IMG/VR virus record: IMGVR_UViG_3300043803_002280
Span: 1 to 33,780 of that record
Strand: one strand, 5' to 3'
DNA from: a virus
Length of the DNA: 33,780 nucleotides
Shown: piece after piece, positions 96 through 28,393 of the stretch
Numbering within the stretch: position 1 is the first letter of the stretch
Layout of the letters: each line of letters starts with the position of its first letter
Position numbers and translations under genes: made by a program
The notes under the pieces: model-generated
Databases searched by the model: none
Told to the model about the DNA's origin: nothing
Seen by the model: the letters and a program-made list of their open reading frames with translations, nothing else

Positions 96-653
96 ATGAC
101 TTGTATTGTTGCAATTGCCCAAGGCGGTGTCGTTTATATGGCATCAGATCATGCCGCATCAGATGATAAAACTGGATGGATCTTATCAAGAAAAGAACCC
201 AAGTGTTTTAAAGTTGGTCAGTATGCTGTTGCATTTACAGATTCATTTCGCATGGGACAAATTCTTCAGTACATGTGGACCCCGCCAAAATATACACCAA
301 CAAAAACAAATTCTGGATTAGATAAATTCATGCGAACAAAATTTGTTGATTCAGTAAAAGCCGCCTTTAAAGAACATGGATATGGAAGTATTGGATCCTC
401 ATCAGAAGAGGATACAGGAGGTATTTTTATAGTAGGTGTTGAAGGTAGAATCTTTACTATAGATGAAGACTTTCATGTTGGAGAAAACATAGTAAACTAC
501 ATGGCAGAAGGTAGCGGTGGCATGATCGCTTTGGGAGCACTTCATGCAACAAAGAATCAAAAGAACCCTAAACTAAGACTTAAAGCAGCGCTAGAGGCAG
601 CAACTGAGTTTAACATGAGCGTAGCAGCCCCCTATACATACATTCAAGTTTAG
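96..653 (+). CDS. HslV/proteasome beta-like Ntn-hydrolase (threonine peptidase)
   Basis: This 185-residue protein resembles HslV (about 175 residues), the peptidase chamber of the HslUV protease, and proteasome beta subunits. After removal of Met1 the N-terminal residue would be Thr (T2), the family's nucleophile. D18 in the MASD stretch matches Asp17 of HslV, K36 lies where Lys33 is expected with a two-residue insertion, and a GSGG motif sits at 139-142 followed by an alanine-rich helix. No unfoldase partner (HslU, Mpa) is in the window, so it may use a host ATPase, act alone or decoy. Its start is fixed by the leaderless promoter, which also places Thr directly after Met. The fold is likely; the target is unknown. 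Confidence 0.75.
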   Translation: MTCIVAIAQGGVVYMASDHAASDDKTGWILSRKEPKCFKVGQYAVAFTDSFRMGQILQYMWTPPKYTPTKTNSGLDKFMRTKFVDSVKAAFKEHGYGSIGSSSEEDTGGIFIVGVEGRIFTIDEDFHVGENIVNYMAEGSGGMIALGALHATKNQKNPKLRLKAALEAATEFNMSVAAPYTYIQV

Positions 654-1096: not shown

Positions 1097-2056
1097 ATGA
1101 AAAAACTAATAACTATGGCACTTGCTGCCACACTAATCGCTATGACATCTATGCCCGCTGAGGCAAATTTAAAACCTAAAACGGTTACACCTACACTTGC
1201 TATTCTAGATACTGCGCTTGACACATCAATTCCTGGAATTAAGTCACGAATTGTTGCAGAGGTTTGTATTTTAGATTGGCCATCATGTCCAAATGGAACT
1301 AGATACATGGAGGGTCCAGGGGCATCTGTTATCCCACTCAACATTCTTTCAACATCATCATTTAATCATGGAACTCAAATGGTTTCAGCAGCACTGCATG
1401 CTAATCCAAACCTGAATATTGTTTTTGTAAGAATTGTTGGAAACACAAGAGCTGGTGCTCAGCAGACATACGGAATTAATACACTTGCAAACGCATTATC
1501 TTGGGTTAATAGCAATAGGCTAAAGTATAATATTGTTGCCGTAGCATCATCACATGCAACTAATGCTCCAGTTATTAGAATGAAAACTGCCGACTATTGC
1601 TTACCAACTAAAATTGATTCAATTGTTTCTACTTTGAATAACTCTGGCATTCCAGTGTTTTTCCCTTCAGGCAATAGTGGAACTAATCCAGCAATGAAGG
1701 ATAAGATTGAATGGCCTGCATGCATTAAGCAATCAGTTGCAGTGGGTGGCATTGAAACTCTTAACCTAGATCGACCACAGATATCTTTGATTAGCAATTA
1801 CGATAAGAACCTGGTAGATTTGTGGGGAGAAGTTCAGCTACCAACCATATACCCTGGAAACAAACCTGGTTTTTCTTACGGAACATCTGTTTCTGTCCAG
1901 GTTATCGCAGCAAAGTACGTGCAGTTAAAGACTATCTTTCCAGCATATACAGCTGATCAATTGATTACGCTAATGAAATCTTCTTCTGTAGAAATTTCAT
2001 CACCTAACGGACAAAGCGTTTACTTGTTTAATTTGCTAAAGGCAATCAATGGATAG
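1097..2056 (+). CDS. secreted subtilisin-like serine protease (S8 family)
   Basis: A 319-residue protein with a signal peptide at 1-24 (Lys-Lys, hydrophobic core, cleavage near AEA-N). The subtilase triad is visible in order: D38 in AILDTALD, H91 in NHGTQMVS and S264 in YGTSVSV. The oxyanion asparagine is probably N193 in SGNSG. It should be exported by the host and act outside the membrane. Possible roles are trimming surface proteins at release or processing the secreted protein at 2786-3952; both are inference. The promoter fixes the start at 1097 rather than the in-frame TTG at 1061, which is the -35 box. It opens an operon running through thioredoxin. Confidence 0.82.
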   Translation: MKKLITMALAATLIAMTSMPAEANLKPKTVTPTLAILDTALDTSIPGIKSRIVAEVCILDWPSCPNGTRYMEGPGASVIPLNILSTSSFNHGTQMVSAALHANPNLNIVFVRIVGNTRAGAQQTYGINTLANALSWVNSNRLKYNIVAVASSHATNAPVIRMKTADYCLPTKIDSIVSTLNNSGIPVFFPSGNSGTNPAMKDKIEWPACIKQSVAVGGIETLNLDRPQISLISNYDKNLVDLWGEVQLPTIYPGNKPGFSYGTSVSVQVIAAKYVQLKTIFPAYTADQLITLMKSSSVEISSPNGQSVYLFNLLKAING

Positions 2057-2259: not shown

Positions 2260-2562
2260 TTGATAGTAACAGATGAAAGTTTTGATAATGTTCTTAAATC
2301 TCACGATTTAGTTCTTGTCGACTTTTGGGCTCCATGGTGTGGACCATGTAAAAAGATATCTCCAATCCTAGATGAGATATCGGAAGAGCGTGGATTATGG
2401 GTGGGCAAGTTAAATGTTGATGAAAATCCTATAAAATCAGCAGAATACTCTGTATCTTCTATCCCTTATATGGTACTATTTAAGTCGGGGAAACCAGTAA
2501 AGACTATTACTGGAGCAAAGCCTAAGCATGTAATGCTAGAAGAACTTTCAGAATGGATCTAG
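2260..2562 (+). CDS. trxA: thioredoxin
   Basis: A 100-residue thioredoxin with the active site WCGPC at 26-30 in the usual context VDFWAPWCGPCKK, and a cis-proline in SSIPYMVLF. It is a dithiol reductant in the cytoplasm. In this phage the natural clients are the class II ribonucleotide reductase (28579-30513), whose C-terminal cysteines need re-reduction, and the thiol peroxidase (7508-7969). The start is TTG, supported by an AAGGGAGA ribosome site a few bases upstream. Length and motifs are typical of the family. Confidence 0.93.
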   Translation: MIVTDESFDNVLKSHDLVLVDFWAPWCGPCKKISPILDEISEERGLWVGKLNVDENPIKSAEYSVSSIPYMVLFKSGKPVKTITGAKPKHVMLEELSEWI

Positions 2563-2737: not shown

Positions 2738-2785
2738 CATTCTGTGATCGCAAAGATTACAGAGGAAATAAGGAGAATAAATTAA

Positions 2786-3952
2786 ATGAACTCATTTAAG
2801 AAAATCGCACTAGTCATGATTGCAGTCATGACTCTGGGCACAATGGTAGCAACACCTGCAAGTGCTAACACCATGACAGTTGTAGCAACAACGTGGAAGT
2901 CGACTCTATCGACTCCAGCGTTTGATGCACCAGCAACTGCTGGAACGGCGCTAACAACTGCAATCGTACGTCCAGTACCTGCAGACAACACAATTGACAA
3001 CACAGATGTTGTTAAGCTAGAAGCAACAGTAACTGCTGGAACAAATGTAGTAGCAACCGCAACAAACGCAACAATCGTTTCTGCATTGCACTCATCAGCT
3101 GCACCAGTAGGAGCATCTTCAGGTTCTTCAACCTTGACAGTTGCAACTGGCACAGGAACAACAGCAACATTTTATGTATACACAAAGACAACAGCAATTG
3201 GAACAGTTGTAATTACAAATGGCCCAGTTACAGTAACATACTACGTACAGGGTACTGCTGGTCTAATTAACAACCTAACTGTTTCTGCACCTTCTGCAGG
3301 AGCAGCAGGAACAAAGCAGGACATTGTTGTAACAGCAACAGATGCGTTTGGAAACAAGGTATCTGGTAAGTCAATTACAGCAACCGTATTTGCTTCGACA
3401 GCAGTTATGGACACAGCAACAGTAACAACTGGTGCTACACTAGCAGATTTTGGAACAGCAACCTTTAAGGCAACTCTTCCAACAACAGGAACACGCTCAT
3501 TAATTACATTTGCTCCAACAACATCAACAGATGCAGTTGCAGCAGCAGTAGTTGGATTGACTGCTCCAACACTTGCACCATTCGCAGAGATTTCAGTTCG
3601 TGATCTAGTATCAGAACTTGCTGCTGAGAAGGCTGCTAAGGATGCAGCAATTGCCGCTAAGGCAGTTGCAGACAAGGCACTTGCTGATGCACTAGCAAAG
3701 GCAACAGCAGATGCAGCAGCAGCTAAAGTTGCAGCAGATGCAGCACTAGCAGCAGCAGTTAAGGTTGAAGCAGACAAGGCAGCAGCAGCAGCCAAGGTTT
3801 CTGCTGACTTACTAGTTGCTAAGGATGCACAGATTGCTAAGTTGACTGCAGACAATGCAGCAGCAATTAAGTCACTTAAGGATGCTTTCAATAAGTTGGC
3901 TCGTCAATGGAATGCAAAGAATCCAAAGGCTAAGGTTACCTTAGTTAAGTAA
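2786..3952 (+). CDS. secreted Ala/Thr-rich surface protein with C-terminal coiled coil
   Basis: A 388-residue protein with a classical signal peptide (KK, hydrophobic core, ASA cleavage near residue 27). Residues 28-260 are rich in Thr, Ala and Val, typical of extracellular beta-sandwich repeats (an Ig-like stretch near 150-230, TVSAPSAGAAGTKQDI). Residues 270-370 form a long Ala/Lys/Asp coiled coil, and the end is a basic motif, FNKLARQWN. From memory, this architecture resembles abundant surface or S-layer-like proteins of planktonic actinobacteria, so it may be a captured host gene that remodels the host surface or blocks superinfection. That role is inference. AAGGAG at 2770-2775 is a strong ribosome site and a terminator follows, suggesting high expression. 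Confidence 0.75.
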   Translation: MNSFKKIALVMIAVMTLGTMVATPASANTMTVVATTWKSTLSTPAFDAPATAGTALTTAIVRPVPADNTIDNTDVVKLEATVTAGTNVVATATNATIVSALHSSAAPVGASSGSSTLTVATGTGTTATFYVYTKTTAIGTVVITNGPVTVTYYVQGTAGLINNLTVSAPSAGAAGTKQDIVVTATDAFGNKVSGKSITATVFASTAVMDTATVTTGATLADFGTATFKATLPTTGTRSLITFAPTTSTDAVAAAVVGLTAPTLAPFAEISVRDLVSELAAEKAAKDAAIAAKAVADKALADALAKATADAAAAKVAADAALAAAVKVEADKAAAAAKVSADLLVAKDAQIAKLTADNAAAIKSLKDAFNKLARQWNAKNPKAKVTLVK

Positions 3953-3959
3953 TTAGTTT

Positions 3960-3989
3960 AATATGGGGCAGGGTCACCTGCCCCATATT
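3960..3989 (+). terminator. hairpin terminator after the surface-protein gene
   Basis: A perfect 13-base-pair stem, with core ATGGGGCAGG against CCTGCCCCAT, closes a four-base loop GTCA. Only a short T run follows. It lies eight bases after the stop codon. Confidence 0.75.
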
Positions 3990-4013: not shown

Positions 4014-4166
4014 ATGGAATGGGATCATTTTCACGTAATTCAAAAAAAAGTTTTAAATGAATTAATTAAAGATATGGAAAGTTTAGAAATTCCACCAGAC
4101 TGGAGACCAAGAGAGGTTTTGAGTTTAGTAATTAGAAAATTAAAAGAAAAAGAGGAATCATGTTAA
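4014..4166 (+). CDS. small helical protein of unknown function
   Basis: A 50-residue protein (MEWDHFHV onward), rich in Leu, Lys and Glu, likely two amphipathic helices. An upstream in-frame ATG lies inside the terminator hairpin, so the later start fits the promoter geometry better. It overlaps the next gene by seven bases. Confidence 0.55.
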   Translation: MEWDHFHVIQKKVLNELIKDMESLEIPPDWRPREVLSLVIRKLKEKEESC

Positions 4167-4372
4167 AGAATTTAAAAAATTGGTTAGGATTTAACTCAGT
4201 TGAATCTCAAGTTGAAGCCATGCTAGAAGAAATTAAGACTTCGGCTAAGAAGGCACCAGCCAAGAAGGTTGCTAAGAAGGCACCAGCCAAGAAGGTTGCT
4301 AAGAAGGCACCAGCCAAGAAGGTTGCTAAGAAGGCACCAGCCAAGAAAACTTCGGCTAAGAAAACAAAATAA
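4160..4372 (+). CDS. histone H1-like lysine-rich DNA-binding protein
   Basis: A 70-residue protein. Residues 1-28 form a helical head (MLKNLKNWLG and onward), and residues 29-70 are nearly all Lys, Ala, Pro and Val arranged as KKAPAKKVA repeats. Such tails resemble histone H1 and the C-termini of actinobacterial HupB-type nucleoid proteins, and bind DNA by charge. A role in compacting phage or host DNA is inferred. The tail is encoded by an exact 27-base tandem repeat, so copy number may vary between strains. It overlaps both neighbours. Confidence 0.75.
   Translation: MLKNLKNWLGFNSVESQVEAMLEEIKTSAKKAPAKKVAKKAPAKKVAKKAPAKKVAKKAPAKKTSAKKTK
4247..4347 (+). repeat. 27-base in-frame tandem repeat (3.7 copies)
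   Basis: Units at 4247-4273, 4274-4300 and 4301-4327 are identical, and a fourth partial copy runs to 4347. Each encodes KKAPAKKVA. Identity at the DNA level, including synonymous positions, points to recent slippage or recombination. Confidence 0.92.
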
Positions 4373-4590
4373 TGGAATCAAACAAAAGAAGTTTTTATAA
4401 ATCAATTACTTGGCCAGCAGTTCATATTGGATTTGTTGGCACATTAGTTTACTTCTTTGAAATGGCTATTACTGGCGAAGCCCACTGGGAGTACGCTGGC
4501 ACATTTGCAATTATTTACACTGCATGCGAAATGATAGGGTTTTTTCTACATGAAAGAGCATGGTCAAAATTTGGTGGGAAGATTAAGTAA
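4372..4590 (+). CDS. DUF2061-like membrane protein
   Basis: A 72-residue protein with two predicted membrane helices (about 16-33 and 43-58) and the layout of DUF2061: an N-terminal RSFYKSITWP stretch, central Glu residues, and a C-terminal HERAW motif. The biochemical role of the family is unknown. It starts on the last base of the preceding stop codon (TAATG junction). Confidence 0.75.
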   Translation: MESNKRSFYKSITWPAVHIGFVGTLVYFFEMAITGEAHWEYAGTFAIIYTACEMIGFFLHERAWSKFGGKIK

Positions 4591-7507: not shown

Positions 7508-7969
7508 ATGTCAATATACGATTTAAATTTTACAGACAACAAAGGAAACACAGTAGAGCTAAGATCTTTGAAGGACAAAGTAATCTTGTTAGTTAATGTG
7601 GCAAGCAATTGCGGATTTACTAAGCAATATAGTGGTCTCCAGCAACTTCACGAATCTTATGCAGAAGGTGGGCTTGAGGTTATTGGCTTTCCATGTAATC
7701 AGTTTGGTGGCCAAGAGCCAGGAACTGATCAAGAAATTGAGGATTTTTGCAAGACAAACTATAATGTAAGCTTTACATTAGCAACAAAGACTGATGTGAA
7801 TGGGATTAACGCACACCCTATTTATAAATACATTAAGGAAAAAACTGGAAAAGAAATTCAATGGAATTTTGAAAAGTTTTTGATTAATAATGGAGATATT
7901 GTTGCATACGGAAACTCAAATTTGCCAGTCGCTTCATTGGAACCACAGATAAAAGATCTATTAAAATAG
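7508..7969 (+). CDS. glutathione-peroxidase-family thiol peroxidase
   Basis: A 153-residue protein with GPx hallmarks: NVASNCGFT with peroxidatic C35, GFPCNQFGGQEPG with catalytic Q69, and WNFEKFL with W119 and N120. C81 in the following helix matches the resolving cysteine of Cys-type, thioredoxin-dependent members (yeast Gpx3). It should reduce hydrogen or lipid peroxides using thioredoxin, and the phage encodes its own at 2260-2562. This would protect the infected cell or the cobalamin radical enzyme from oxidation. Confidence 0.9.
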   Translation: MSIYDLNFTDNKGNTVELRSLKDKVILLVNVASNCGFTKQYSGLQQLHESYAEGGLEVIGFPCNQFGGQEPGTDQEIEDFCKTNYNVSFTLATKTDVNGINAHPIYKYIKEKTGKEIQWNFEKFLINNGDIVAYGNSNLPVASLEPQIKDLLK

Positions 7970-27799: not shown

Positions 27800-28360
27800 C
27801 TAACTCTTAGATGGAAACTTGCTTAGCCACTCTTTTGTTCGAGGAGTTAAGCCTTTCCATGACGACCAATCTTGACCGCCATTGGTCATATAATACGTTA
27901 TCTCTGCGTTGATTGCTGGATCAAATAACGAATAGTTACTGTCCAGTTTGAATTTTTCTTTACGATCATTACCTAGGTTTCCCAACATGTTAATCTGAAA
28001 AATTCCATAGGAACTGTCTCCAGTTTTCCTGTTGCCGTTATAAGCCATTGGGCGTCCATTAGACTCCTTTTTAGCTACAGCCCACGCCATTTTAAGGGCG
28101 CTACCCTCAAAGCCTACAGCCTTGAGAAGTTCAACCAATTCTTTGTCTGTTAAAGACTCTGATGGTTTCCACACAGTATTGCTGAATTGCTCCAGCTTTT
28201 CCTTGTTAAGTTGTGCTTCGGTTTTTACATCTGGTTTTACAACCAGAGCAGATGCTGATTGAATTATTTCTGGTTGACCAGCAAATAAAAACAATACAAA
28301 CACTGATATTGCAACATAGTGATGTAAAACATCGCTAAGTTTTTGTTTTATATTCTCCAT
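27800..28360 (-). CDS. secreted lysozyme/transglycosylase-like endolysin
   Basis: A 186-residue protein. Residues 13-38 form a hydrophobic signal or anchor segment (YVAISVFVLFLFAG) with a possible SASA cleavage site. The catalytic domain (75-180) has the lysozyme-superfamily layout: AVAKKESNG with Glu99 as the likely acid, then SSYGIFQIN and YYMTNGGQDWSSW. It would cut peptidoglycan. An exported endolysin with an N-terminal anchor fits a pinholin/SAR-type lysis scheme with the holin at 30583. GGAGGA lies seven bases before the ATG at 28360. Confidence 0.82.
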   Translation of the reverse strand: MENIKQKLSDVLHHYVAISVFVLFLFAGQPEIIQSASALVVKPDVKTEAQLNKEKLEQFSNTVWKPSESLTDKELVELLKAVGFEGSALKMAWAVAKKESNGRPMAYNGNRKTGDSSYGIFQINMLGNLGNDRKEKFKLDSNYSLFDPAINAEITYYMTNGGQDWSSWKGLTPRTKEWLSKFPSKS

Positions 28361-28393
28361 AGGCATTTCCTCCAATAGAGATAACGAACTATA

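Follow-up and report, generated by a model that had tools for sequence, protein, structure and literature searches.

A conserved Ig-like/coiled-coil protein with a predicted export signal in putative freshwater actinophages: a candidate for remodelling the infected-cell surface

The surf locus raises the question why a phage should encode a protein that carries an export signal and does not look like a virion part. The locus lies in a viral fragment of 33,780 nt (IMG/VR record IMGVR_UViG_3300043803_002280), referred to here as the window. Fresh waters are dominated by Actinobacteria such as 'Ca. Nanopelagicales', whose abundant phages have received little study. A phage protein that is near-universal, strongly expressed and equipped with an export signal would imply a phage-made surface on infected cells; if true, this would bear on superinfection and host range, and perhaps on grazing. 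Moreover, surface-protein genes that are exchanged while their neighbours are not would give a direct and testable handle on what phages compete over. The features of the locus are collected in Table 1.

Table 1. Features of the surf locus and its partner genes; positions refer to the window unless another contig is named.
Feature	Position	Strand	Basis or remark
HslV-like Ntn hydrolase (phrog_1040), linked marker gene	96..653	+	linkage to surf
Exported subtilase (S8), predicted signal peptide	1097..2056	+	PF00082, 33.9 bits vs cut-off 21.8
Thioredoxin	2260..2562	+	linkage; near surf in window-type order
5' UTR stem-loop, 10 bp, loop GCAAA	2740..2764	+	directly 5' of ribosome-binding site; -11.9 kcal/mol, z -5.6
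Shine-Dalgarno AAGGAG	2770..2775	+	sequence, 10 nt 5' of surf ATG; nearly all relatives have AAGGAG or a close variant
surf gene, 388-aa Ig-like/coiled-coil protein, predicted to be exported	2786..3952	+	ORF, relatives, AlphaFold2 model
Predicted signal peptide, 27 aa	2786..2866	+	n-, h- and c-regions with AxA, kept across surf family
Two predicted beta-sandwich (Ig-like) domains, ~residues 28-247	2867..3526	+	AlphaFold2 block, pLDDT mostly 57-83; Foldseek
Long Ala/Lys-rich helix, predicted coiled coil, residues 274-378	3605..3919	+	pLDDT ~88-93 over most; weak break at 335-341
Conserved basic tail NPKAKVTLVK	3920..3949	+	retained even in members scoring only 105-250 bits
Intrinsic-terminator-like hairpin, 13 bp	3960..3989	+	directly 3' of surf stop; z -5.5; comparable hairpins in relatives
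Small DUF2061 membrane protein	4372..4590	+	near surf in one gene order, adjoins CHAP endolysin in the other
PA14/PT protein (example)	L083:1454-3595		contig with identical surf; upstream of window region

A sequence-only reading of the window had described surf as an open reading frame with a signal peptide, a Thr/Ala-rich β region and an Ala/Lys-rich helix, and had regarded the product as S-layer-like. The frame and its parts are present as described, and relatives were detected in at least 393 IMG/VR stretches with one probe set and in at least 593 with another. The N-terminus, MNSFKKIALVMIAVMTLGTMVATPASA, is predicted to act as a Sec signal peptide of textbook form, including an AxA site; signal peptides, here and in the partner proteins, were recognised by eye and with a crude script. 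It is followed by approximately 220 residues rich in Thr, Ala and Val and then by the Ala/Lys helix. In an AlphaFold2 model calculated with 39 relatives in the input, the long helices comprise residues 274–335 and 342–378; since the mean pLDDT is 72.8 and the pTM is 0.44, the arrangement of the domains is uncertain. The C-terminus reads KLARQWNAKNPKAKVTLVK, and among the relatives the signal peptide, the Ig region and the C-terminal motif FNxLAxxWNxKNPKAKVxLVK are conserved.

No match to the surf sequence was found in Pfam, NCBIfam, PHROG, the PDB or 50,697 annotated phage records; no Pfam family appeared at E≤1, and the only NCBIfam hit was a spurious weak match to a tRNA ligase. Foldseek searches with the model returned intimin and invasin as well as two S-layer proteins, SbsC and SbsB, with E-values of 1e-5 to 1e-3, whole-model TM scores of 0.20–0.31 and, between the β region and its top matches, sequence identities of 9–17%. 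On the phage side Big-1/Big-2-type proteins were retrieved, together with Ig-like phage tail and head proteins at TM scores of at most 0.28 only. As judged from the model, the fold matches are those of generic Ig-like domains, with invasin and intimin as much as with SbsC. Searches of surf for known anchors (LPXTG, SLH, lipobox, and also CWB2-type or known S-layer domains) found none. With no SLH domain or other wall anchor found, and with a generic Ig-like fold, S-layer membership is not upheld.

The coil differs in length among the relatives: values of 64, 68, 71, 75, 79, 82, 86, 93, 100, 157, 164 and 171 are observed (66 distinct coils), mostly separated by steps of 7, 4 and 11. The steps show a periodicity with R 0.70 at a period of 3.6 (p 0.0009, for the best of six periods and uncorrected). 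Indels of 7, 4 and 11 residues preserve the register of a helix. The hydrophobic periodicity of the coil shows no clean peak at 3.5, so that the coiled-coil assignment rests on the model and on the indel spacing.

Strong expression signals had also been proposed for surf, and these hold up well. A consensus promoter scan of the window gave nothing above chance, and it missed the hairpin behind the stop codon because the T-run after this hairpin is short; the signals were instead judged by comparing surf relatives. All 63 distinct downstream sequences contain a GC-rich hairpin 3' of the surf stop, compared with 10 of 600 other ORF ends (criterion: a perfect GC-rich stem, 7 bp or longer, starting no more than 35 nt from the stop; the controls include chance ORFs), and in 55 of the 63 it is followed by at least four T. 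At the position equivalent to the 5' stem-loop, a hairpin of other sequence occurs in only a subset of the relatives, with one compensatory example (CTGGTC/GACCAG vs GTGGTC/GACCAC). Measured by the use of C/G-ending codons, the codon bias of surf is the 3rd highest among 100 genes in one related genome and the 4th highest among 93 in another, its peers being the major head protein (phrog_1623), a major-tail-like protein, an Ig-domain tail-like protein and SSB. The GCA-rich Ala codon use noted earlier is real, with GCA in 66 of 93 Ala codons against 50–60% in most of the longer neighbouring genes, but it is the lesser part of the bias, which is stronger overall (AAG in 25 of 27 Lys codons). The hairpins and the codon bias are signs, not a measurement, of strong and separate transcription of surf.

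The distribution of surf was assessed in HslV-seeded loci, chosen without regard to surf and divided by their HslV into two lineages. The gene is present in 110 of these 111 loci, namely in 67/67 of lineage A and 43/44 of lineage B, and the idea of surf as an accessory moron gene is rejected on these counts. Of 61 subtilase-seeded loci with sufficient flank, 59 likewise contain it, as do all 32 PA14-seeded loci, and twelve contigs each carry a single copy. WhiB, the usual sign of actinophages (PMC10202952), is encoded in each of the ten larger surf-bearing contigs tested (48–114 kb). Together with a low G+C content and what has been published about such phages, this indicates that the carriers are probably freshwater actinophages. 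In large (~110–118 kb) WhiB-encoding phages of this kind surf is near-universal and, by its sequence signs, highly expressed. The nearest sequenced cultured relatives found are Streptomyces phages of 131–134 kb, such as Jay2Jay and Yaboi; phages of this type give the best matches to the ribonucleotide reductase (RNR) and the phrog_1221 protein of the window (65% and 51%, respectively). They share these two proteins with the window, but surf and the subtilase were matched neither in them nor in any of the 50,697 phage records, at the sensitivity of tblastn. Two scans of 84,980 bacterial and archaeal species genomes with exact 8-residue patterns gave no surf relative, and an origin as a recent host-gene copy is rejected to the extent that such patterns exclude close copies only.

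The sequence-only reading had coupled surf to a secreted subtilase, and this coupling is confirmed. The protease has a predicted signal peptide and all catalytic residues (D38, H91 and S264 invariant, oxyanion N193 conserved), and its linkage to surf (59/61 and 110/111 loci) is seen in two gene orders. The order in lineage A, to which the window belongs, is TerL ... PA14/PT protein – lipoprotein – CHAP endolysin – whiB – HslV – subtilase – thioredoxin – surf, and in lineage B it is TerL – surf – PA14/PT protein – (lipoprotein) – HslV – subtilase – CHAP endolysin – DUF2061. The linkage of surf to the subtilase, PA14/PT, lipoprotein and CHAP genes thus holds in both. The PA14/PT protein, of ~670–730 residues, contains a signal peptide, a coiled coil, a Pfam PA14 domain, a Pro-Thr-Glu stalk (PT repeats) and a hydrophobic C-terminus; because of its signal peptide, stalk and hydrophobic C-terminal end it looks membrane-anchored. 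The CHAP endolysin matches lysis PHROG families, and the DUF2061 membrane protein is a holin candidate. What had escaped the sequence-only reading is that surf is near-universal rather than accessory, that it has this second, putatively exported partner outside the window, and that both genes are exchanged between lineages.

Several other genes of the region deserve mention. An SLT_3/transglycosylase lysozyme with its own signal peptide (27803–28375, minus strand) is a predicted exported lysin besides the CHAP endolysin, and its counterparts in lineages A and B are 69% identical over 130 residues. A 70-residue protein with near-perfect APAKKVAKK repeats (4160–4372) resembles the histone H1-like HC2 tail and varies in presence among the relatives. 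The thioredoxin gene and a glutathione-peroxidase-like gene (7508–7969) recur near the exported-protein genes and may have a redox or disulfide role in infection. In one locus the surf slot between thioredoxin and DUF2061 is occupied by a different protein of 538 residues (L216:11645-13261), with a signal peptide, predicted strands and a C-terminal helix, which resembles surf only in its signal peptide and whose single-sequence fold (pLDDT 39) is too poor for a fold search. It is an apparent replacement of surf, as if the slot needs an exported rod.

Sequence comparison of the two lineages indicates that the surf and PA14 genes are exchanged between them, which is a new result. Across lineages A and B, TerL is 56%, HslV 37–38% and the subtilase 35–36% identical, and the Ig region of surf is 78–83% identical, like its within-lineage values. 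Loci picked through surf/PA14 similarity form a biased sample, and the comparison was redone with the HslV-chosen loci. In these the Ig region of surf has 78% identity across lineages, compared with 75% inside lineage A and 83% inside lineage B; one pair is identical. HslV is 38% identical across lineages versus 93% and 87% within them. One A/B pair of long contigs has 57% identity in TerL, 33% in the subtilase and 35% in HslV, but in this pair the identity of surf is 67% from end to end, and that of a portion of the PA14 protein (188 aligned residues) reaches 87%. When cross-lineage DNA segments of at least 150 nt and at least 80% identity were counted by gene, 1264 were assigned to surf, 636 to PA14, 161 to DUF2061, 68 to other sequence and 7 to CHAP, and none to HslV, the subtilase, thioredoxin or whiB. 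In one A/B pair the DNA identity reaches 95.3% over 1340 nt spanning surf.

Quick trees, built with no mixture model, give 14 lineage changes for surf (60 sequences), 9 for PA14 (46 sequences) and 1 each for HslV and the subtilase. For HslV the single change follows from the design, because the lineage labels were set by HslV; the independent control is the subtilase. Divergent surf variants, scoring 86–250 bits, occur in lineages A and B alike. The simplest reading of this mixing is frequent transfer of both surface-protein genes, presumably among phages that share hosts. A locus with a lineage-A HslV in which surf directly precedes PA14, as in lineage B (L344:2-7223), has a hybrid gene order that is compatible with cassette exchange.

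The reading that we favour, with a probability of roughly 0.45, is that surf is an abundant host-facing envelope protein which acts with the subtilase and the PA14 protein to remodel the infected cell's surface. That distantly related phages exchange surf suggests that it rebuilds the host surface during infection. As we infer, the product, made with a signal peptide, would probably be exported by Sec to the host's own surface, where the rigid Ala/Lys coiled-coil rod would hold the two Ig-like domains and the basic C-terminal tail would probably attach the protein to the cell envelope. The exported subtilase may remove host surface proteins, whose place phage proteins would fill, and the stalked PA14 surface protein may act with both on the infected-cell surface. 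The most likely benefit would be the blocking or removal of receptors, which would keep competing phages, or the phage's own progeny, from binding. This reading is weakened by the search for LPXTG, SLH and lipobox motifs, which found none, and by the Ig region, which is strongly conserved, in contrast to a fast-evolving receptor blocker or exclusion factor. In its most far-reaching form, which we put forward tentatively and consider rather doubtful, the proposal describes a dedicated re-surfacing module in lytic freshwater actinophages: a protease would strip host surface proteins while a pair of exported phage proteins, one of them made at capsid-like levels, would coat the cell, and these host-facing genes would be common goods, passed around among lineages that otherwise keep their neighbouring genes to themselves.

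The main rival to surface remodelling is a role in lysis, which we regard as unlikely. Here surf, the PA14 protein, the subtilase, the lipoprotein and the endolysin would jointly weaken or clear the protein or glycan envelope of the host late in infection, with surf as an exported structural or scaffold part. The tight linkage of surf to the CHAP endolysin is compatible with such an egress module too, as are the DUF2061 small membrane protein adjoining the endolysin and the SLT lysozyme, predicted to be exported, elsewhere in the window. However, surf has no enzymatic domain, and the cassette does not pass down as a single unit for lysis, because surf and PA14 are exchanged whereas the endolysin, HslV and the subtilase stay with their phage lineage. 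Less probable again is a host-like surface protein that would serve the infected cell in the lake, through adhesion or aggregation, protection from grazers or cell integrity during infection. The surf Ig-like domains resemble bacterial adhesins, and the partner protein has a PA14 domain, a domain that binds carbohydrate in many families; against this stands the pattern scan of 84,980 bacterial and archaeal genomes, which gave no relative and excludes close host copies only.

We hold it improbable that surf is a virion-associated Ig-like decoration or tail accessory protein whose hydrophobic N-terminus is incidental, even though its codon bias resembles that of capsid genes, many tail and head decoration proteins of phages have Ig-like folds, and surf directly follows TerL in lineage B. 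The signal peptide is classical and conserved, the gene has its own terminator and sits among genes for predicted exported proteins, and it is exchanged between lineages while the terminases do not follow; a virion decoration protein is judged unlikely on the conserved signal peptide and the lack of a PHROG match. The earlier description of an envelope protein rather than a virion part is kept as far as the export signal, the apparent high expression and the unlikeness to virion parts go, and finds no support as regards the S-layer. Least credible of all is exchange through homologous recombination only, favoured by strong conservation in a highly expressed gene and free of host-facing selection. 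As surf and PA14 rank among the best conserved of the shared genes, crossovers would find the most homology there; but their cross-lineage conservation is itself mostly owed to exchange, with mixed trees and divergent variants in both lineages.

The proposed surface remodelling by surf can be compared with several known systems. With invasin, intimin, SbsB and SbsC the β region of surf shares a common Ig-like fold, not membership, and unlike these proteins surf is without an SLH or outer-membrane anchor. The lipoprotein Llp of phage T5 is an exported phage product that blocks the receptor and protects the infected cell or the progeny. By analogy, surf might work in this mode; Llp, however, is a small lipoprotein on the Gram-negative outer membrane, whereas surf is a large rod without a lipobox. 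CwpV of Clostridioides difficile is an antiphage cell-wall protein that confers phage resistance reminiscent of superinfection exclusion (PMC4737114). It is, as predicted for surf, an exported Gram-positive cell-surface protein, but it is host-encoded and phase-variable and has a repeat-containing C-terminal domain, and no homology to surf is claimed. Gene 23 of the methylophage Melnitz encodes a putative S-layer-type protein, for which altered receptors and protection from superinfection were postulated (PMC9004378). The resemblance to surf is one of description, in that a phage of a streamlined aquatic bacterium encodes a putative surface-layer protein (PMC9004378); the Melnitz case is a single annotation in a phage of a Gram-negative OM43 host. 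The surf family, in contrast, is near-universal in its phage group, and both its partners and its exchange between lineages are documented.
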